Origin: Thermoflavimicrobium daqui
Lineage (GTDB): Bacteria; Bacillota; Bacilli; Thermoactinomycetales; Thermoactinomycetaceae
Assembly: GCF_003313465.1 (NCBI RefSeq)
Contig: NZ_KZ845667.1
Location: 186,001-250,000, forward strand
DNA: 64,000 nucleotides
Reading direction: 5' to 3'
Part shown: piece by piece, positions 23,372 to 50,875 of the stretch
Layout of the letters: each line of letters opens with the position of its first letter
Position numbering within the stretch: the stretch's first letter is position 1
Program-made: the position numbers and the translations under genes
The notes under the pieces: model-generated
What the model was told of the DNA's origin: nothing
What the model saw: the letters and a program-made list of their open reading frames with translations, nothing else
Databases searched by the model: none

Positions 23372-24103
23372 TTAGGATATGAAATTATTTGAATAGGAAG
23401 CCTTTAAATTAGTCTTTTGGGTACTATTCATCTCAAGTAACCTACCATCTTTAATTGTCAAAACCCGATCACATAGGTCGAGTACTCGTTCATCATGGGT
23501 CACCATAATAGCAGCTTTTCCTCTTGACTTTACCCCTTCCGCTAACATTTCTACCACATCTCTACCCCGTTTGGAATCAAGACTAGCTGTTGGTTCGTCA
23601 GCGAGAATGATTTCTGGATCATTCATCCACGCACGAGCAATGGCTACTCTTTGTCTTTCTCCTCCGGATAAATTCTCAGGATAATGATTACGACGATGGG
23701 ACAATCCAAGGCGCTCCAATAGTGTATCCGCTTTATAATCGGCTACTTTACTTCGTTTCTGAGCCAATTCAGCCACTAGCAATAACTGGTCACGTACGGT
23801 TAAAAAAGGAACTAGATTAGATGATTGAAATACGAATCCGATTTTTTCTAGCCGGAGATTGGTCATTTCTTTCGATGAAAGAGTGGTGATATCCTTATTG
23901 TCAAGAAGAAGTCGTCCTTTGGAAGGAGACAATAAAACCCCAGCGATCGATAATAATGTACTTTTCCCTGAACCAGATGGTCCAACAATCGCCACAAATT
24001 CCCCCTCATTAATGTGAAAAGAAACGCGATCTAATGCCTTTACTTCTGTGTCTCCTTCCCCGTAAATTTTACTAACTTCTTCAAATATCAATTTTTCTCT
24101 CAT
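23372..24103 (-). CDS. hrtA: HrtA-like ABC transporter ATPase (haem efflux)
   Basis: 243 residues. Walker A GPSGSGKST, Q-loop FVFQSSNLVPFLTV, signature LSGGERQRVAIARA, Walker B IILADEPTASLD, H-loop VTHDERVLD. The MacB/LolD-type ATPase shares the FQSSNLVP(F/Y)L region with Staphylococcus HrtA. Its ATG shares one base with the stop codon of the permease gene (TAATG), so the two are translationally coupled. It powers removal of excess haem or a similar membrane-active compound. The symbol is given by homology of the whole four-gene set. Confidence 0.85.
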   Translation of the reverse strand: MREKLIFEEVSKIYGEGDTEVKALDRVSFHINEGEFVAIVGPSGSGKSTLLSIAGVLLSPSKGRLLLDNKDITTLSSKEMTNLRLEKIGFVFQSSNLVPFLTVRDQLLLVAELAQKRSKVADYKADTLLERLGLSHRRNHYPENLSGGERQRVAIARAWMNDPEIILADEPTASLDSKRGRDVVEMLAEGVKSRGKAAIMVTHDERVLDLCDRVLTIKDGRLLEMNSTQKTNLKASYSNNFIS

Positions 24104-25212
24104 TACTCCGCCCTCCCAATCGCTTCCACAGCATCTACTTTTGCGATGCGATATAATGATAACAATGAGCCCAAGACTGAAACGACCAACAATAAACCAG
24201 AGAACAGTATAAAGGTTTCGGTTTCTATTTTAAAAGGAACACTTGCTGGTAAGATCTGTTGGGTTCCATACGTGAATCCGATACTCAAAAGAATAGCCAC
24301 AATGGTGAGTAGTATCACTTGACCAATCAGACTGCGAGCCAGATAAGAAGTTTTAGCACCAATTGCTTTCAAAACACCAAATTGATTGGTTTTTTGTAGA
24401 GTTATTACATAGAAAAAGACAGCTTGTACAAAGGAAGCAATCACAAAAAGGAACGCGATCATCATATTAAGAGAACCTTGCTCTTCTTTATATCCAGGAA
24501 TATTTTGTAGTGCTTCATCTTTTGTAATGACATCCATATCTTTTACTTCATTTTTTAGATTAGCGACTTGATTGTTTTCAATTTGCAAAGCAATCGCACT
24601 ATAGTAAATTTTCTTCTGCTGAGGGTTGGTATGAATCAGGGACTCCCAATCTTTTAAATTCATAAAGATAACTGGAGAATGACTAAATGTTTGTCCTTCT
24701 GTAAATCCGACTACTTTCCATTTTTGTTCTGTCTCAGGGTCTTGAATCCAATCTCCCAATTGAATCCCCTCTTGCTTTAGAGATTGATCTACAACAATTT
24801 CTTGTTTTGTGGTGTTATTAAATTGATTTCCCTCTACAACAATTGGAGCGAGAATGCCACTTGCATCTGTAGCAAAAATGGTAATGTCCATCTTATCTTT
24901 TGTTCCCATTTTCGTAACAGAAAGTATCTTTAGCCCTAATGGAGCGGATGCATGAATCGATGTTTGTTTTTGAATTTCTTTCCACTGTTCATCTGTAATC
25001 TGGGAACGATTTAATTTATTTTCTGCATCGGGTTGGATTACAAAATGGTCTGCTTTCATATTTTGCAAAGCTGAAGCATTATCTGATGAAAGGCCATTGG
25101 CCAGTCCAGAAATTATAAATACCAGCCAAGCAATGAGAATCATGATAAAACCAATTAGGAAATAGCGTAATTTAGAAAACTTTAATTCTCTGAGGGCCAG
25201 AAACATCTTCAT
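24103..25212 (-). CDS. hrtB: HrtB-like FtsX-type permease (haem efflux)
   Basis: 369 residues: an N-terminal TM helix (LIGFIMILIAWLVFIISGLANGLS), an extracellular MacB-like domain of about 200 residues, then three TM helices. LNMMIAFLFVIASFVQAVFF followed by YVITLQKTNQFGVLKAIGAKT is strikingly like the HrtB core. The start is ATG 25212 or, with better ribosome binding site spacing, ATG 25206. A candidate HssR box and a -10 lie just upstream in the 68-bp gap after hssS. It works with the HrtA-like ATPase at the cell membrane. Confidence 0.87.
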   Translation of the reverse strand: MKMFLALRELKFSKLRYFLIGFIMILIAWLVFIISGLANGLSSDNASALQNMKADHFVIQPDAENKLNRSQITDEQWKEIQKQTSIHASAPLGLKILSVTKMGTKDKMDITIFATDASGILAPIVVEGNQFNNTTKQEIVVDQSLKQEGIQLGDWIQDPETEQKWKVVGFTEGQTFSHSPVIFMNLKDWESLIHTNPQQKKIYYSAIALQIENNQVANLKNEVKDMDVITKDEALQNIPGYKEEQGSLNMMIAFLFVIASFVQAVFFYVITLQKTNQFGVLKAIGAKTSYLARSLIGQVILLTIVAILLSIGFTYGTQQILPASVPFKIETETFILFSGLLLVVSVLGSLLSLYRIAKVDAVEAIGRAE

Positions 25213-25241
25213 TCACTCCTTCAATGCTGTTTTCTGACCCC

Positions 25242-25274
25242 ATTATAGGAATGGAATATGAACAATAGATGAAT
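25242..25274 (-). promoter_or_regulatory. hrtBA promoter with HssR-type direct repeat
   Basis: On the minus strand ATTCATCTA-TT-GTTCATATT (25255-25274) is followed 7 bp later by TATAAT (25242-25247). The known S. aureus HssR box is two GTTCATATT half-sites with a 2-bp gap. Here the promoter-proximal half is exact and the distal one is degenerate. So hrtBA probably has its own haem-inducible promoter inside the four-gene cluster. Confidence 0.7.
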
Positions 25275-25280
25275 AGAAAT

Positions 25281-26663
25281 TTACATATAAGGTAGATGAA
25301 TGATAAATGTAGTTCCTTTTCCTTCTGCGCTTATCACTTCAATAGATCCAAAATGCAATTCAATGATTTTTTTGGCGATCGATAATCCGAGCCCACTACC
25401 AGGATGATTCCGTTTTCGAGCTTTGTCTACTTTGTAAAATCGATCAAAAATATATGGTAGATCCTGTTTAGGGATTCCAATACCCGAGTCCTCAATTCGT
25501 ACAACAACCTCCTTTTTGCTTGTGTTAACAATTTGAAGAGAAATCATCCCCCCCTTTTCTGTAAATTTGATACTATTTGTAATCAAATTAATCCATACTT
25601 GATATAACAATTTTGAATCTCCTTGAATAATGGTGCTTGGTAGATCCATATCAATCGCTAATTCTTTTTCACGCCATCCCCATTCTGTCATAAGTACCGC
25701 TTGTTTCATTTGGTCAGCTAAATCAAACGACGTTATATCAAGTTCGCCCTTATCCCTATCTAAAGACGCCAGCGTTAATAGCTGTTTACTTAATAAAGAT
25801 AGTCGACTACTTTCTTCTTCAATAATCGATAAATAGTGTTGATGTTGTTCAGGAGGTAAATCATTCGCTTGCAGCGTTTTGGAGAAGCCTTGGATCGAAG
25901 CAAGAGGGGACTGAATTTCATGTGACACATTAGAGACAAACTCTTGTCTCATCTCTTCCAGACGTTCTAAGCTTCGAGCCATTTGGGTAAAGTGCTGTGC
26001 CAATTGACCAATCTCATCTCTTCGATTCACATGTAATTGGATATTGTAATCTCCATGAGCGATTTTTTGGGTGGCTCTGCTCAACACTCTTATTGGCTTA
26101 ACAATGTAGTAGGCACCGATAAAAACCAATAAAACACTAAGTCCGATCATCAGTGCGACTAGAACAGCAAAAAAGATCCGCATTTCCCCAAACTGATACT
26201 CGATATCAGGGCGGATAAAAAGAGCATAGTTTTTACCATTCGCATCTATTGGGACACCAATGGTATTTCTCAATTCGTCATCAAAAAAACCAGTAACAAA
26301 AGCTTGTTTTGGAAATTGAACAATCCCATGATAAGTTTCTCCACGTAAAACTTGATTAATGGTGCTTTGGGTTAAATTGTGCTGGCTAAAAGGTTTTCCA
26401 TAGTACACTTTCTGTTTATCTTCTTTAATTAAAAGCATTTGAAATCCTAAATGAGAAATGCCCTTCAAATAGTGATCAAGATTAACCGTAGGATGTGTTT
26501 CATAAAATGAAGCAATATTACTAGCCATTTGAGTAATTTTACGATCGTTATATGGTTTTAATTTTATTTGGTAATACACATTACTTAATAAAAAAGCGAT
26601 AAGCCCACTGAGAAACATAATAAAAATCGTAGTAAGAGCAAATCGAAAATAGAGTGTTTTCAC
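25281..26663 (-). CDS. hssS: HssS-like sensor histidine kinase
   Basis: 460 residues. TM1 (LTTIFIMFLSGLIAFLLSNVYY), an extracellular sensor of about 130 residues with YHGIVQFPKQAFVTGFFDDELRNTIGV, TM2 near 165-187, HAMP, then FVSNVSHEIQSPLASIQGF (phospho-His, with Q instead of the usual K/R next to SP), and the ATPase boxes NSIKFTEKGG, DSGIGIPKQDLPYIFDRF and GSGLGLSIAKKI. Sensor and TM regions match S. aureus HssS (LTNVYYHYNLKASNDAKI-like). The ATG overlaps the hssR stop codon. Confidence 0.87.
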   Translation of the reverse strand: MKTLYFRFALTTIFIMFLSGLIAFLLSNVYYQIKLKPYNDRKITQMASNIASFYETHPTVNLDHYLKGISHLGFQMLLIKEDKQKVYYGKPFSQHNLTQSTINQVLRGETYHGIVQFPKQAFVTGFFDDELRNTIGVPIDANGKNYALFIRPDIEYQFGEMRIFFAVLVALMIGLSVLLVFIGAYYIVKPIRVLSRATQKIAHGDYNIQLHVNRRDEIGQLAQHFTQMARSLERLEEMRQEFVSNVSHEIQSPLASIQGFSKTLQANDLPPEQHQHYLSIIEEESSRLSLLSKQLLTLASLDRDKGELDITSFDLADQMKQAVLMTEWGWREKELAIDMDLPSTIIQGDSKLLYQVWINLITNSIKFTEKGGMISLQIVNTSKKEVVVRIEDSGIGIPKQDLPYIFDRFYKVDKARKRNHPGSGLGLSIAKKIIELHFGSIEVISAEGKGTTFIIHLPYM

Positions 26664-27337
26664 TTAGCTTGAACCTCCAATTTGTATCCAATCCCACGAA
26701 CCGTTTTAATACTAAAATCATCGGTTCGCTTAGCAAAGCGTTCACGTAAACGTTTGATATGAACATCAACCGTTCTTATATCCCCTTCAAAATCGGGACC
26801 CCAAATTAACTGTATCAATTCCTCGCGTGTGAAGACACGGTTCGGATAGCTAGCAAGTTGGGATAATAACTCAAATTCTTTGAGTGGTAAGATAATGATA
26901 TGACCATTACAACGGACTTCGTAGCTTTTTCGATCAATGATAGTTTGATTAAACTGAATGTAGTTTGCATTAATCATCTGATAACGGCGCAGTAAAGCTT
27001 TCACACGAAATATTAATTCTCTCGGTTCAAATGGCTTAACGATATAATCATCTGTTCCATGCTGGAAGCCCTTTTCTTTGTCTACTAGCTGATCTTTTGC
27101 TGTAAGTAGGATAATTGGAATATCATAATAACTCCGAATCTCCTTACATAGTTCATATCCATCTTTAAAAGGCATCATAATATCCACAATCGCTAAATGT
27201 ATCTGTTCCTTTTCGAGAACATGTAGAGCATCTTCTCCATCCACTGCTTCAAAAACGACATATCCTTCTTTTTGTAAATGAAAGCGGACTAGCTCTCTAA
27301 TATTTGAATCGTCGTCTGCAATTAAAATATGTAGCAT
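26660..27337 (-). CDS. hssR: HssR-like OmpR-family response regulator
   Basis: 225 residues. Receiver with IADDDSNIRELV, phospho-Asp in LAIVDIMMPFKDGYELC, LLTAKD and GTDDYIVKPFEPRELIFRVKALLRRY. C-terminal winged helix VFTREELIQLIWGPDFEGDIRTVDVHIKRLRERF. It is close to staphylococcal HssR throughout. ATG 27337 follows TTTGGAGGTTTAAAT. It heads the order hssR-hssS-hrtB-hrtA on one strand, whereas in S. aureus the two pairs are divergent. The 27338-27626 gap upstream holds no gene, only a small hairpin (27478-27513) and a repeat fragment. Confidence 0.87.
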   Translation of the reverse strand: MLHILIADDDSNIRELVRFHLQKEGYVVFEAVDGEDALHVLEKEQIHLAIVDIMMPFKDGYELCKEIRSYYDIPIILLTAKDQLVDKEKGFQHGTDDYIVKPFEPRELIFRVKALLRRYQMINANYIQFNQTIIDRKSYEVRCNGHIIILPLKEFELLSQLASYPNRVFTREELIQLIWGPDFEGDIRTVDVHIKRLRERFAKRTDDFSIKTVRGIGYKLEVQAK

Positions 27338-43347: not shown

Positions 43348-44435
43348 TTACTTTTCGTTAATCGACTTCGTTTGATCATAAACGACTTTACCATCAACAA
43401 TGGTTAACTGTACCTTTGTATCTGATATTTCTTCTACAGGTATTTCAAAGAGATTGCGTTCCAAAACAACAATATCGGCAAGTTTTCCTACTTCAAGTGT
43501 ACCTAGCTCATGTTCTCTGAACGTACCGTAAGCTGAACCCAAAGTGTATGCTTTCAACACTTCAGCAAGTGTGATCCGTTCATGGGGATGCCATACAGTT
43601 TTTCCGCTGCTGTCAATTCTTGTTACTGCACGATAGATTTGTAGAAGTGGATTAAAAATATCTATAGGGAAGTCGGTTCCGAATGCTAATTTTGCCCCTG
43701 ATTTCTTCAATGTATGAATGGCAAATACATATTTTTCCCGTTCATTCCCTATTCGTTCGGTGTAAACACCTCGCTCGGACATCGCCAGGTGATCTGGCTG
43801 TATCGAAGCGGTAACACCAAGCTCTTTGAAACGATGGATATCATCAGGGTGGATCACTTCTACATGTTCTATGGAATGACGTGAATCTCGCTTACCGTTG
43901 GTCTTCTGTGCTTCCTCATAAGCATCTAAAGCAAGGCGAATCGCCCCATCTCCTATCGCATGGAAACGAATACTAAACCCCTCTCTATCCGCATCAACTA
44001 CCCATTTCTTAATCATCTCAGACGGGAAAGTAGTCTCTCCACGGGTTTCGGGTTGATCCGCATAAGGTTCGAGTAAATAAGCGGTTCGAGCAGTAATAAC
44101 GCCATCGATAAATTGTTTCAGTCCCGAAACACGGGGTTTATCCGATTGATACTTATCCCGCAATTGTTTGGCAGATTCAAGATTACCATTTAAAGCAGGC
44201 CATAGATGAATCCGTGTAGTTAATTCCCCTTTATCTTCGAATTCCTTGAAAATATCCAATGCTTCTATTGATTTTAAAGCATGCAAGTCATGGACAGCAG
44301 TTACTCCTAGACTTGCTGCATATCTCAAGAAATTGGCGAAAATCCCATGCTTTTGTGTATTTGGAAAATTGAATGCATGGAGTACAACAGCATCCATTGC
44401 TTTTTCATATGATGGATTGTAAGATGAAGTGCGAC
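43348..44435 (-). pseudogene. YtcJ-like amidohydrolase, N-terminally truncated at an IS30 scar
   Basis: The C-terminal two thirds (about 360 residues) of an amidohydrolase-3/YtcJ protein: LGVTAVHDLHALKSIEA, GLKQFIDGVITARTAYLLEPYAD, RFHAIGDGAIRLALDAYEEA, SRHSIEHVEVIHPDD, FGTDFPIDIFNPLLQIYRAVTR and the C-terminal GKLADIVVLERNLF. The N-terminal 170-190 residues, including the HxH metal motif, are absent. The frame is open past the ATG at 44397 to about 44435, where IS30 sequence begins. An insertion or deletion removed the rest, so it should be inactive. Confidence 0.85.
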
Positions 44436-44760
44436 AAAAAAAATAATAGAAAAGCTCATGAAATGATTCGTGTAAAATGGAGTCACCACAACACCTTTAC
44501 ACAAGGAGAATCATTTATGAGCTATACGCATCTTACCACAGAAGAACGCATACAGCTAGAGTTACTAAACAAACTAGGCTGGTCTACACGGAAGATCGGT
44601 AAGCAATTAGGGCGCCATCATTCGACCATAGCACGGGAACTAGGGCGAAACCAAGAAGAAAAGTATTCTGCTGAGAGAGATCAAAAAGCTTATCAAGTAA
44701 GAAGGCGAAATCAGCCATCCAAAAGAAAAGAAGAACAGACCTTTACGACTGTGCCATAAT
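44433..44760 (+). mobile_element. IS30-family fragment with transposase N-terminus
   Basis: From about 44433 a non-coding end leads to ATG 44517 (AAGGAGAATCATTT upstream). This opens an 80-codon frame, MSYTHLTTEERIQLELLNKL, then GWSTRKIGKQLGRHHSTIARELGRN, the IS30 helix-turn-helix. It stops at 44759 while a full transposase has about 320-340 residues. So only the left end remains. It lies between two truncated genes, marking a deletion junction. Confidence 0.8.
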
Positions 44761-44821
44761 GGGAACTTAGTACAGTAGATTGGATTTTCATTTTTATCTA
44801 CTACCTATCATTAAATTGAAC

Positions 44822-45518
<697 letters not shown>

Positions 45519-45617: not shown

Positions 45618-46910
45618 TCAATCTAACATAAACATTTGTGAAAATATATCATTATCCATTTGATTATCTTGTATAAGGAGTGTTAATAAAATAGATATAA
45701 TACCATCTAACATTGAGAGTGAGTCACTCTCTGTCATTTCTCCTGACTCTATATCTAGATCATATTTCTTAAAGAGGAATGGATTACTAACATCTTTCAA
45801 TGAGATGATCTTTTCTAATAACTCTTCTGCATAATCTTTATAAATAGAAATTCCTGTATCTCTATAAAACAAATTAAAGATATGAAAAGCACCCGCATAG
45901 CCATGACAAAACGTAGGACAATCAAAGCTTAGATCTTCTAATTTTCTTTGCGAAACTTTCATCATAACCTCTTTAGAAAGCTGTTCTAATTCTGCATCAT
46001 GTATTATCTTGGATGAAAGATATAAGGCTCGAGCGATACCTGTTTCTCCGTAACACCAACTGGGTCTCATGGGTCTACCTTTCATATGCGGTTGTGGTTC
46101 CATATTCTTATTCGCCTTTAATATTTTGGGCCAATATATTCTTTCTTTTTCTATAATCACATGATTTCTATATATTTCTATCAATTTTTGAATCGCTTGT
46201 TCTTGTCCACTTACAACCATTCCTTCCCTCATTGCAAGTGATAAAAATACAAGAGGAGAAGCGATCCCATGTGACAAACCTAAATCCAGATAGCCATACG
46301 GAAAATTTGCTTTATGTTCTGCATGGATAATATTATCATATAAGATAAAATACTTATTGTATATCATCTGATTCGTACCAGGGTTACCTGTCAGCTCAAT
46401 TAGATATTGAACCAACTGAATTAAAATTTCCCTATTTTTTTCATCTTCTTTATACTTTAATAGATATCTTCCTATGCCACTCGCTCCAAAAAATAAATCA
46501 TAGTCTCTAATGGTTGTACCATTTTTTCTCCAATATTGAGTCAAGGATAAATTTGTTTGTTTTACTATTAAATTATTCAATTGAGTGATAAATCGTTGAT
46601 AATACTTCCCTTTATTAGATAGAAAATCGGCCAGATAACCAATACCTATCAGTCCATTACATATCAACTTTGTGGAAAGTACTGGTTCCATCAACTCATT
46701 CAGCTCTTTAAATAAACGATGTGCCTTATTGACATAGATTTCTTTTAAATTTGGATCGTTTAAAAAGTAGCCTATATAGGTGCATAATACCGTATAGTCA
46801 TATAAGAATGATACATGTTGTAGAGCTCCTTCTTGCTTACAATTTTGATAATACTTTTCAATCCGATTTTCCACTTCAATACACAACGAAATAATCCTTT
46901 GATCACTCAT
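45618..46910 (-). CDS. LanC-like lanthionine cyclase
   Basis: 430 residues with the LanC alpha,alpha-toroid motifs: GLSHGIASPLVFLSLAMREG (His214), PSWCYGETGIARALYLSS (Cys286) and CPTFCHGYAGAFHIFNLFYR (Cys335, His336). The three zinc ligands are intact. LanC enzymes catalyse addition of Cys thiols to dehydrated Ser/Thr to close (methyl)lanthionine rings in a leader-bound precursor. ATG 46910 follows GGGGGGAATCTT, 28 bp after the glycosyltransferase gene. With the precursor at 48569 it makes a compact locus, but no dehydratase is in the window. Confidence 0.9.
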   Translation of the reverse strand: MSDQRIISLCIEVENRIEKYYQNCKQEGALQHVSFLYDYTVLCTYIGYFLNDPNLKEIYVNKAHRLFKELNELMEPVLSTKLICNGLIGIGYLADFLSNKGKYYQRFITQLNNLIVKQTNLSLTQYWRKNGTTIRDYDLFFGASGIGRYLLKYKEDEKNREILIQLVQYLIELTGNPGTNQMIYNKYFILYDNIIHAEHKANFPYGYLDLGLSHGIASPLVFLSLAMREGMVVSGQEQAIQKLIEIYRNHVIIEKERIYWPKILKANKNMEPQPHMKGRPMRPSWCYGETGIARALYLSSKIIHDAELEQLSKEVMMKVSQRKLEDLSFDCPTFCHGYAGAFHIFNLFYRDTGISIYKDYAEELLEKIISLKDVSNPFLFKKYDLDIESGEMTESDSLSMLDGIISILLTLLIQDNQMDNDIFSQMFMLD

Positions 46911-46938
46911 AAGATTCCCCCCATTTTTCTTGCAAATA

Positions 46939-48264
46939 TCAGATTGAGTCTAACATTTCTATTACTAAATCTAATCTCTCTTCCGTTTTACTTTGATACA
47001 ATTCTACCGCATACTCCTTGATTGCTTGTTTATATTTCGAATCAAATAATAACTGTAAGATCATTTCACCCGTTGTCATATAATGCTCTCGTTTTTTGTA
47101 GGTTGTTAGTCCTAAGCCTAATTCCTCAATCAATAGCCCATTCATTACTTGTTCCGCTGAAATTGGTTTTACCAACATGGGCACTTGATTATAAATTGAT
47201 TCTAAGATACTATTCATTCCTCCCGAAGTAATAAATAATGAAACATATTTTAAGATAGCTTTTTGTGGCAAATATTTGCGAATGAATAGTTTATCTGGAT
47301 TGTAATAATCTTTTAATAGCTCTTTTACTAGCTTTTCATCCTTATTCCATGAGATCAGAAGTTTATAATTCGTACTATGAAATGCCTCTATCAAACTTAG
47401 GTAGTAATTATCCTGTTCAGTGACAAATGAACCAGTCGCAATGTAAATCAGTTTCTCTTCCCCTTGTATGAAATGGTAAAGCTCGGGATCTTCATTGAAC
47501 GAAAGTTCTTCCGAAAAACTTTCGATCTGTGGTGGGACAATAATATATTCATTATTTTCATTTAATTCAGCAGGCTGGAGAAAGTCTGTAGAAAAAATGA
47601 TATTATGCTTCTCATTTGGATCAAAATGACAATATGTAGGTATTTGGAACGTATTTAATTTAGTAGCAACTTCAGCATATATATCTGTAGCTATCGAATG
47701 AAAATTTTTATATTCCTCCTCTGAAAGAAGATCATCCACTTCTGTGATTCTAAGAAAATGGGAATAGTAATATTTTGGATCTTTTGCAAAGTACAGGTCT
47801 GAATATAAATTACAAGTAATATAGCCTATTCTCTTCATGTTTAATCGACGGGCAATCTGTTTTCCTGCTATATCAACAGCATCTCTAAACACCACATCAG
47901 GTTGGATTTTTCTTACTATATTGGTAATACTTAGCATATCTTGTTCTCTGAAATCATAGTGATTCATGATATCTTTTTTTATAGTAAACCAAAATAGCTC
48001 TTTTAATTGATGAGCCTCCGTACAATTATTAATCTTGCGATCTATCTCATCTAACATAACATCTAACTTTTCATTGCATTTAAAATCATAAAATCCCTTA
48101 GGATACTCCATGAACTCAGCCCCATTCATTTCTAAGACATCTTTATTGTTCATGGTGGAAAAACAATATACATCATAACCTTCCTCTTTTAATCTTTTAA
48201 TTAACGGAATAATAGGGTTAATATGGCTGAATGATTTGCCTGTGAAAAATAGAATTTTTTTCAA
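46939..48264 (-). CDS. GT-B (MGT/UGT-like) glycosyltransferase
   Basis: 441 residues from TTG 48264. N-terminal FFTGKSFSHINPIIPLIKRLKEEGY carries the His (H14) that acts as catalytic base in macrolide- and UGT-type glycosyltransferases. The donor domain has LIYIATGSFVTEQDN and LFITSGGMNSILESIYNQVP (345-364), then KPISAEQVMNG. The usual H of the T-H-G-G donor motif is Ser347 here, which could change donor use. It lies between the lanthipeptide-like precursor and LanC, so it probably glycosylates the peptide; the acceptor could also be another molecule. It is transcribed with lanC. Confidence 0.85.
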   Translation of the reverse strand: MKKILFFTGKSFSHINPIIPLIKRLKEEGYDVYCFSTMNNKDVLEMNGAEFMEYPKGFYDFKCNEKLDVMLDEIDRKINNCTEAHQLKELFWFTIKKDIMNHYDFREQDMLSITNIVRKIQPDVVFRDAVDIAGKQIARRLNMKRIGYITCNLYSDLYFAKDPKYYYSHFLRITEVDDLLSEEEYKNFHSIATDIYAEVATKLNTFQIPTYCHFDPNEKHNIIFSTDFLQPAELNENNEYIIVPPQIESFSEELSFNEDPELYHFIQGEEKLIYIATGSFVTEQDNYYLSLIEAFHSTNYKLLISWNKDEKLVKELLKDYYNPDKLFIRKYLPQKAILKYVSLFITSGGMNSILESIYNQVPMLVKPISAEQVMNGLLIEELGLGLTTYKKREHYMTTGEMILQLLFDSKYKQAIKEYAVELYQSKTEERLDLVIEMLDSI

Positions 48265-48314
48265 CTATATTCGCTACCTTCCTTTAAAAATTTGACTACA
48301 TTTTAGAAAAGAGC

Positions 48315-48339
48315 AGGCGCATGAATGACTCATGCGCCT
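48315..48339 (-). terminator. stem-loop between precursor and glycosyltransferase genes
   Basis: AGGCGCATGA-GTCAT-TCATGCGCCT, a perfect 10-bp stem followed by GCTCTTTTC on the minus strand. It may be partial termination or RNA protection that keeps precursor mRNA in excess over the enzymes, as is common in peptide clusters. The rest of 48265-48568 is AT-rich and non-coding. Confidence 0.6.
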
Positions 48340-48568
48340 AAGATTAGAGGTAGACAAAACGCTAGATTTACTTTGTTGTTTATTTTTTATTATAAATTTT
48401 TGATTTAAAATAAAACCTTTCTTCACTAATTCTAGTAATTTATCACTTGGTCCTTATTTGAAAACGAGCCCGTTTTAATTGTTTTCTATAACAGTTGTTG
48501 ATTTCTTGTTGTTAAAATAAACAGAAGCAAAGGGAAAGAAACTGAATAGTTAAACTATCATCGAATTA

Positions 48569-48742
48569 TTAACCGCAAGGAACTCCGGTACAATCTCGCA
48601 CTTCAGTTGCTGTAGGTGCTGTCGATGGTGTCAGAGTCCAACATGTATAAGTAAAAAAGAATTGGGCATCAGCGTTCCCACTAGTTTGTGCTGTTTCTTT
48701 TACTTTTACATTTAAATCGAAATCTTTTAGGTTATTTGACAT
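48569..48742 (-). CDS. lanthipeptide-like precursor peptide
   Basis: 57 residues from ATG 48742, which follows AAAGGAGAGG. The leader, MSNNLKDFDLNVKVKETAQ plus TSGNADAQ, has the F-D-L-N box of class I leaders (compare FNLD in nisin, FDLN in epilancin) and a Gln end like Pep5/epilancin. The predicted core has 30 residues, FFFTYTCWTLTPSTAPTATE then VRDCTGVPCG: eight Thr, one Ser and three Cys. Thr4-Cys7, Thr19-Cys24 and Thr25-Cys29 could form three methyllanthionines. The central Thr/Pro-rich stretch looks like a glycosylation site. An in-frame upstream ATG (48799) lacks such a ribosome binding site. Confidence 0.82.
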   Translation of the reverse strand: MSNNLKDFDLNVKVKETAQTSGNADAQFFFTYTCWTLTPSTAPTATEVRDCTGVPCG

Positions 48743-48858
48743 AAAAACCTCTCCTTTTTTGTTCCTTTCCCTTTGCTCGTAACAGCCATTTCTAACCATT
48801 TATTAATATTGCATATTTATGGTAAAATCCATCTAGTCAGAAAATACTGCTAAGTAAA

Positions 48859-48886
48859 TTATAATTATAATAGATAAAAAATCAAT
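48859..48886 (-). promoter_or_regulatory. promoter of the precursor gene
   Basis: TTGATT (48881-48886), 16-bp spacer, TATAAT (48859-48864) on the minus strand, giving a 5' untranslated region of about 110 nt. Confidence 0.55.
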
Positions 48887-49336: not shown

Positions 49337-50875
49337 TTATGTCTGACACCAATCTTGTATTTTCCAAATTTGTGTCACCCATTTTTTATAAAATGCCGGC
49401 TCATGCGAAACAAGAAGTACCGTACCTGTATATTTTTTGAGAGCTTCCTTAAATGCTTCTTTAGCATAGATATCTAAATGATTCGTCGGTTCATCTAAAA
49501 CAAGAACATTGCTATTTGTTAAGATTAGTTCACATAAACGTACTTTAGCTTGTTCTCCTCCACTCAATGAACAAAGTGGTTGCCGAATATGTTGTTCCGT
49601 TAGCCCAGACCTTGCTAATTCTTGTCGAATTTCTCTTTGTGTTAGATCTGGTCGAATTGACCATAGTCGTTCAAGAGGCGTTTCTTTAGAATCCAATTCT
49701 TCTTGTGCAAAAAAAGCAGCTTTGACTCGATCATTTAATTGAACTGTGCCACCTAAAGGTTTCAGGTATCCGAGTAATGTTTTTAACATCGTTGACTTTC
49801 CAATACCGTTATGACCGATGATAGCGATTTTTTCACCACGCTTTATCTGCAGATCAAGAGGTGCAAATAACGGTTCAGCATACCCGATTAACAGATCTTT
49901 GGTCTCCAAAATATAGCTCCCAGGATCACAATGAACATGAAATAGAAAACGTGGCTGTGCCACCCAAGTCGGTTTCTCAATGCGGTTCATTTTTTCTAAT
50001 ACTTTTTCACGGCTTTTTGCTTGCTTTGCCTTTCGAACTTTATTCTTTTGAATAAAACTCTCTAACCTGCTTATTTCTCTTTGCTGTCTTTCATACGCTA
50101 ATTGGATTTGTTTTTTATTTTGTTCATAGCTTTTAACAAATGTCGTATACTTACCTGCATAGCGTTTAATCGTTTGATGCTCTAAGTGAAAAATAGTCGT
50201 TGCAATTTCATTTAAGAACCGTTCATCATGGGATACTACCATATATGCATGTTCATAATTCTTTAAATAGCTTATCAGCCATTCGATATGCATATCATCA
50301 AGGTAGTTCGTTGGTTCATCTAATAATAAGATTTGGGGCTCTTCTAGTAATAGTTTTCCTAATAGTAGTTTCGTACGTTGTCCTCCACTTAATCTGCTGA
50401 CATCGCGATCCATACCCATTTCTAAAATACCTAATCCACCAGCAACCTCTTCAATCTTGGCATCCAAAGTATAAAAATCAGAGTGATCTAGCTTACTCTG
50501 TAACTTACCATATTGTAGTAACAATGTCTCCAAGCTATCCCCTGCTGTAGCCATTTTTTCTGTTATTTGCAATATATTTCTTTCTATCTCATACAAGTGT
50601 GCAAAAGCACTTTGTAAATGCTGTTTAATGGTTGTTCCTGGCTGTAAATCGATATGTTGCTGTAAAAAACCTACTTTTACTTGAGGCATCCATTCCACTT
50701 TTCCGGTATCAGGAATTAAATCCCCTGCTAATATACGAAGTAATGTTGATTTTCCCGCCCCATTTCTTCCTACAAGACCGACATGCTCTCCACGTAGCAA
50801 TCGAAAACATACATTTTGAAAGATGATTTTATCCCCAACCATATGGGTTAAATTTTCAACAGATAACATACTCAT
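49337..50875 (-). CDS. ABC-F ribosome-protection ATPase (VmlR/Vga/Lsa-like)
   Basis: 512 residues without TM helices. Two ABC cassettes: Walker A GRNGAGKST and GHNGIGKST, signatures LSGGQRTKLLLGKLL and LSGGEQAKVRLCEL, Walker B ILLLDEPTNYLDD and VLVLDEPTNHLD. The linker (about residues 195-300, YEQNKKQIQLAYERQQREISRLE...) is the ribosome-reaching domain. The family displaces lincosamide, streptogramin A, pleuromutilin or macrolide drugs from the peptidyl transferase centre. ATG 50875 follows AAAGGAGAG. A 260-nt leader with terminator and small ORFs precedes it, which supports an antibiotic-resistance role. Confidence 0.9.
   Translation of the reverse strand: MSMLSVENLTHMVGDKIIFQNVCFRLLRGEHVGLVGRNGAGKSTLLRILAGDLIPDTGKVEWMPQVKVGFLQQHIDLQPGTTIKQHLQSAFAHLYEIERNILQITEKMATAGDSLETLLLQYGKLQSKLDHSDFYTLDAKIEEVAGGLGILEMGMDRDVSRLSGGQRTKLLLGKLLLEEPQILLLDEPTNYLDDMHIEWLISYLKNYEHAYMVVSHDERFLNEIATTIFHLEHQTIKRYAGKYTTFVKSYEQNKKQIQLAYERQQREISRLESFIQKNKVRKAKQAKSREKVLEKMNRIEKPTWVAQPRFLFHVHCDPGSYILETKDLLIGYAEPLFAPLDLQIKRGEKIAIIGHNGIGKSTMLKTLLGYLKPLGGTVQLNDRVKAAFFAQEELDSKETPLERLWSIRPDLTQREIRQELARSGLTEQHIRQPLCSLSGGEQAKVRLCELILTNSNVLVLDEPTNHLDIYAKEAFKEALKKYTGTVLLVSHEPAFYKKWVTQIWKIQDWCQT

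Follow-up and report, generated by a model that had tools for sequence, protein, structure and literature searches.

A probable class I lanthipeptide pathway divided between two loci of Thermoflavimicrobium daqui, one of them carrying a glycosyltransferase

How could a locus that encodes a lanthipeptide-like precursor, a glycosyltransferase (GT) and a LanC, with no dehydratase at hand, give rise to a lanthipeptide? To dehydrate Ser/Thr, class I LanBs use glutamyl-tRNA to glutamylate these residues and then eliminate the glutamate (PMC7268733). The locus lies in a 64-kb stretch of DNA, here called the window, for which a first-pass annotation had offered two solutions: LanB and LanT encoded elsewhere in the genome, or dehydration through glycosylation followed by elimination. 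We favour the former and propose, with a probability of roughly 80%, that a single class I pathway is spread over two loci, the window holding the precursor-GT-LanC half and another contig, C2, the LanB-LanT half. Only the arrangement of the genes and the sugar enzyme would then most likely be unusual, not the chemistry of dehydration. The elements of the window locus are the following.

45618..46910, minus strand: lanC, 430 aa; zinc ligands and catalytic residues complete; MadC (8byk) is the best solved relative
46939..48264, minus strand: 441-aa glycosyltransferase with GT-B fold, YojK/YjiC/macrolide type, starting with TTG; retains His14 and Asp128, has Ser347
48314..48340, minus strand: hairpin separating lanA from the GT gene, 11-12 pairs; z -4.9
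48569..48742, minus strand: lanA-like precursor of 57 aa with an FDLN leader; putative leader/core border, giving the core FFFTYTCWTLTPSTAPTATEVRDCTGVPCG
48858..48885, minus strand: promoter-like site TTGATT-16-TATAAT upstream of lanA; a consensus match only

Precursor, GT and LanC do follow one another in that order on one strand, as first described, and all three ORFs were recovered at these coordinates. The precursor ORF runs for 57 codons from an ATG at 48742, with a Shine-Dalgarno sequence, AGGAGAGG, closely 5' of the start; an alternative in-frame start, which would give 76 codons, is less likely. The leader is of the F(N/D)L(N/D) type of class I precursors, FDLN occupying residues 8-11, and the core is of the corresponding Ser/Thr/Cys kind, with 3 Cys, 8 Thr and 1 Ser (9 Ser/Thr). 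Against the NCBIfam family NF038155, 'FDLD family class I lanthipeptide', the precursor scores 18.3 bits (E 0.0031), slightly under the cut-off of 20. Among the listed ATG...F[DN]L[DN] candidates of the genome, class I-type precursors with Cys are confined to this ORF and the precursor of a cluster on contig C1; used without a ribosome-binding site the leader pattern is too loose, giving 168 matches against 119 in the control. No match to the precursor was found among plasmid sequences. A chance ORF was rejected in view of position, ribosome-binding site, leader, hairpin and the near-threshold family match. The hairpin is a probable attenuator or partial terminator; promoter-like TTGATT-16-TATAAT sites show no excess in the region. 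Immediately upstream of the precursor lies an ABC-F protein gene (window 49337-50875), which matches one family member at 51% and has no close orthologue in either congener.

The LanC appears fully equipped. It matches PF05147 with 169 bits, and an alignment of nine LanCs upheld the initial claim of intact zinc ligands and extended it to the catalytic residues: D138, H214, C286, C335 and H336, which correspond to NisC D141, H212, C284, C330 and H331, are invariant in 9/9. It is thus a stand-alone LanC with zinc ligands, as in class I. Apart from the C2 remains described below, LanC matches in the samples searched reach at most 34% identity, and the plasmid search gave distant matches only. Next to lanC, at 43348-45490, lie wrecked genes: an amidohydrolase missing its N-terminal portion, what is left of a transposase (HTH_38 domain), and an aminotransferase that is shortened and frameshifted. 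These broken genes suggest a rearrangement border.

The glycosyltransferase belongs to the GT-B fold by family profile and by predicted structure. It scores 52.9 bits against PF00201 (cut-off 19.5) and 123.6 against the stricter TIGR01426, under the cut-off of 260; its predicted structure, a fair model (pLDDT 77.6, weak at residues 60-110 and 150-215), matches YojK, YjiC and OleD. His14 and Asp128, which we take to be the catalytic pair of this family, are both kept. The HGG donor-site motif with its conserved His is changed to SGG, His347 being replaced by Ser, and the enzyme may accordingly use an unusual donor or be slow; the C2 remains carry SGG likewise. Neither family profiles nor the predicted structure revealed an added lyase domain. 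Beyond the C2 remains, relatives in the samples searched are at most 37% identical, two scans of the genome contig collection found none, plasmids gave distant matches only and phages none. The enzyme is a GT-B and not a GT-A glycosyltransferase of the SunS/ThuS type found in glycocins. Its position between lanA and lanC in the window, and between lanT and lanC on C2, suggests that its acceptor would be the peptide.

The statement that the 64 kb contain neither dehydratase nor transporter held up on closer search. With both genomic LanBs as tblastn queries, no LanB or LanB remnant was detected in the window, nor was a LanT remnant, and PF04738 matches in the genome fall on contigs C1 and C2 only. 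The usual class I layout, in which lanB clusters with lanA and lanC, is therefore missing here, but such clustering defines the usual layout and not the chemistry. The sole LanT-resembling ABC gene of the window (23375-25212) is an ordinary ATPase beside a permease. It opens a row of ABC ATPase, permease, sensor kinase and response regulator (23375-27337), 18 kb from the locus; sets of this type respond to peptide antibiotics, and any role of this one is putative. There is also no LanM at the locus, as class II would have; the genome's long LanC-domain protein, with a frame of 1039 aa and probably a LanM, is encoded at C1 (G000:C1:216405-217418, L050). A LanM acting in trans on the window precursor was set aside, the leader being class I in form. 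A further LanC-like domain is split across two adjoining ORFs (G000:C9:89363-90050, L049).

Where, then, are the missing parts? The family search of the genome, which the first-pass annotation had recommended, returned two LanBs, one on C1 and one on C2, each with a LanT nearby. The C2 pair spans approximately C2:532436-537389, lanT following lanB. Its LanB carries both Lant_dehydr domains above cut-off (PF04738 386 bits, PF14028 170 bits) and aligns at the conserved motifs with NisB and with the dehydratase 9g04, its best solved relative, which is presumably MadB; plasmids gave distant matches only. Directly behind lanT, tblastn revealed GT pieces in shifting frames and then LanC pieces. Read through the frame changes, the GT remains share 62% identity with the window GT across 196 aa, and for LanC two pieces reach 53 and 75% against the window copy. 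As these remains are much closer than any other match in the samples searched, we assign the window GT-LanC pair and the C2 lanB-lanT pair to one cluster lineage. An intact lanB-lanT directly upstream of a decayed GT and LanC of the window type strongly supports the first of the two solutions. No precursor was seen beside the C2 pair. The pseudogenes have lost about 60% of the GT and LanC genes and show, in some 300 aligned codons, 4 in-frame stops and 5 frame changes; lanB-lanT shows zero lesions in 1654 codons. Were the nine lesions evenly spread, the chance that all would fall in the pseudogenes is about 5e-8, an estimate that presumes equal exposure and would be weakened by decay starting at the 3' end.

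In each of the trees of LanB and LanC from 20 clusters (19 others, that on C1 included), the member from this system, the C2 LanB or the window LanC, forms a lone, long, outlying branch (2.62 and 2.64 changes per column, respectively), and the remainder of the two trees is mainly congruent; the matching positions depend on these long branches, which limit their weight. GC content is alike in the two half-loci, 31.5% for the window lanC and GT genes and 30.8% for C2 lanB and lanT, and differs from the 34-39% of the C1 cluster. The assembly consists of 40 contigs with an estimated contamination of 3%; tetranucleotide use agrees among C1, C2, C5 and C9 about as well as among parts of the window, which speaks against a foreign contig but does not exclude one. 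Gene content, the remains beside lanB-lanT, the intactness of that pair and the matching tree positions are all direct observations.

Other partners and other fates have to be weighed against this proposal. The C1 cluster belongs to a different lineage and has the full class I set of precursor, LanB, LanC and LanT. Its LanB, intact in both domains and part of a working-looking cluster whose own leader, FDLD, is similar, could dehydrate the window precursor in trans and leave the C2 pair as a leftover. We regard this as unlikely: the C1 LanB is paired with a LanC only 30% identical to that of the window and sits in a different part of the tree, the two precursors do not align, and the C2 lanB is still open beside wrecked genes. 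It is quite unlikely that both half-loci are remnants of a dying system with no product. The C2 GT and LanC are dead, the window locus has truncated neighbours (aminotransferase, amidohydrolase and a transposase remnant), no immunity or regulator genes were seen adjoining either half, and no relatives were found that would show conservation; yet 5/5 pathway genes have remained open, with start signals and catalytic residues, amid those wrecked neighbours.

The boldest alternative is that the GT replaces the dehydratase, glycosylating Thr/Ser whose sugar is then eliminated to Dhb/Dha for LanC, so that rings form without LanB. The GT adjoins LanC with no LanB within 64 kb, and its donor motif is altered. 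However, the genome holds a LanB of the matching lineage that formerly stood directly ahead of the same GT-LanC pair, the GT has no added lyase domain, and no such chemistry was found in the literature surveyed. We consider this route, the second solution of the first-pass annotation, very improbable indeed; it found no support and is not needed, since on C2 a GT of this kind used to follow LanB in one operon. With LanB and LanT beside a decayed GT and LanC on the other contig, the chemistry is most likely ordinary.

How would a class I pathway split over two loci operate? That the window and C2 proteins act together, as well as the sugar, its site and every chemical step, we infer from sequence. 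Transcription would start upstream of lanA and meet the hairpin before the GT gene; the signals are present and their function is putative. The C2 LanB, acting in trans and guided by the FDLN leader, would dehydrate the core's Thr/Ser residues in the usual way, glutamylation followed by elimination, and the window LanC, given its residues, could close up to three (methyl)lanthionine rings. The GT would place a sugar on the core, candidate acceptors being Trp35, Tyr32 and unreacted Thr/Ser. The C2 LanT would export the product, and an unlinked protease would remove the leader; cases of unclustered lanthipeptide proteases have been described (PMC8960859). Two related clusters that each lost what the other kept are the probable origin of the split; on C2 the order B-T-GT-C is still visible. 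An undivided A-B-T-GT-C cluster was not found in any relative in the samples searched, hence the ancestral order is inferred. With a difference of about 38% between the window and C2 copies of the GT, a recent division of a single cluster cannot account for the two loci; the C2 LanB must recognise a leader that belongs to a diverged sister cluster.

Is such an arrangement seen elsewhere? In the sampled class, LanB adjoins most LanCs, usually together with LanT. Two congeneric genomes, G191 and G210, nevertheless share an additional, conserved lanA-lanC locus that has FDLD precursors and shows no LanB in the 20 kb retrieved, and each has a full class I cluster elsewhere; a lone lanA-lanC with LanB elsewhere in the genome is thus not unique to the window. 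At these loci (L097:9701-11173 in G210, L098:9438-11187 in G191) the precursors, of 50-51 aa, end in VQVC/IQVC, the LanCs measure 416-417 aa and the same neighbours, dynamin-like GTPases, flank both. None of the 23 LanC neighbourhoods fetched from other genomes contains a GT, so the precursor-GT-LanC triad, whose recurrence had been suggested as a check, does not recur there. In another genome of the genus (G002, L040:10047-12104), a class I cluster is decaying: its C1-type LanC adjoins a LanB 3' end and an inverted fragment of LanB. Elsewhere, four identical 47-aa nisin-like precursors stand in tandem on the minus strand (L041), and arrays of at least 8 divergent FDLD/FELD precursors lie on the plus strand next to single LanBs (L043, L092).

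Among known systems, maddinglicin of Clostridium maddingley (PMC9889658; MadB PMC12241602) supplies the best solved relatives of the window LanC (MadC, 8byk) and of the C2 LanB (9g04), with identities to Mad proteins of only about 30%. Unlike the split genes here, the Mad genes form one complete cluster, and no glycosyltransferase is mentioned as part of it (PMC9889658; PMC12241602). NAI-112 resembles the window locus in having a dedicated glycosyltransferase, the Trp-glycosyltransferase AplG (PMC12328550, PMC10373908), and the window core also has a Trp; but NAI-112 is class III, with one LanKC enzyme and labionin rings. The glycocins sublancin and thurandacin are, like the predicted product of the window locus, Bacillota peptides with a cluster-encoded glycosylating enzyme (SunS, ThuS; PMC10373908), but those enzymes have an unusual GT-A fold and glycocins lack thioether rings, whereas the window locus pairs a GT-B with LanC.

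What would a split pathway imply? The window locus would belong among the 'unclassified' LanC loci without a nearby dehydratase (PMC7268733), which, like the unclustered proteases (PMC8960859), represent pathways relying on genes outside the cluster. Unlike those cases, the distant parts here are a dehydratase and an exporter, identified by the decayed homologues that adjoin them. In the literature surveyed, no macrolide-type GT-B was found paired with a class I lanthipeptide; the combination is a candidate route to glycosylated lanthipeptides. Where a lanthipeptide locus appears to have no dehydratase, a complementary and half-decayed cluster in another part of the genome can supply the explanation, and the same check could resolve some of the 1392 unclassified LanC loci (PMC7268733).
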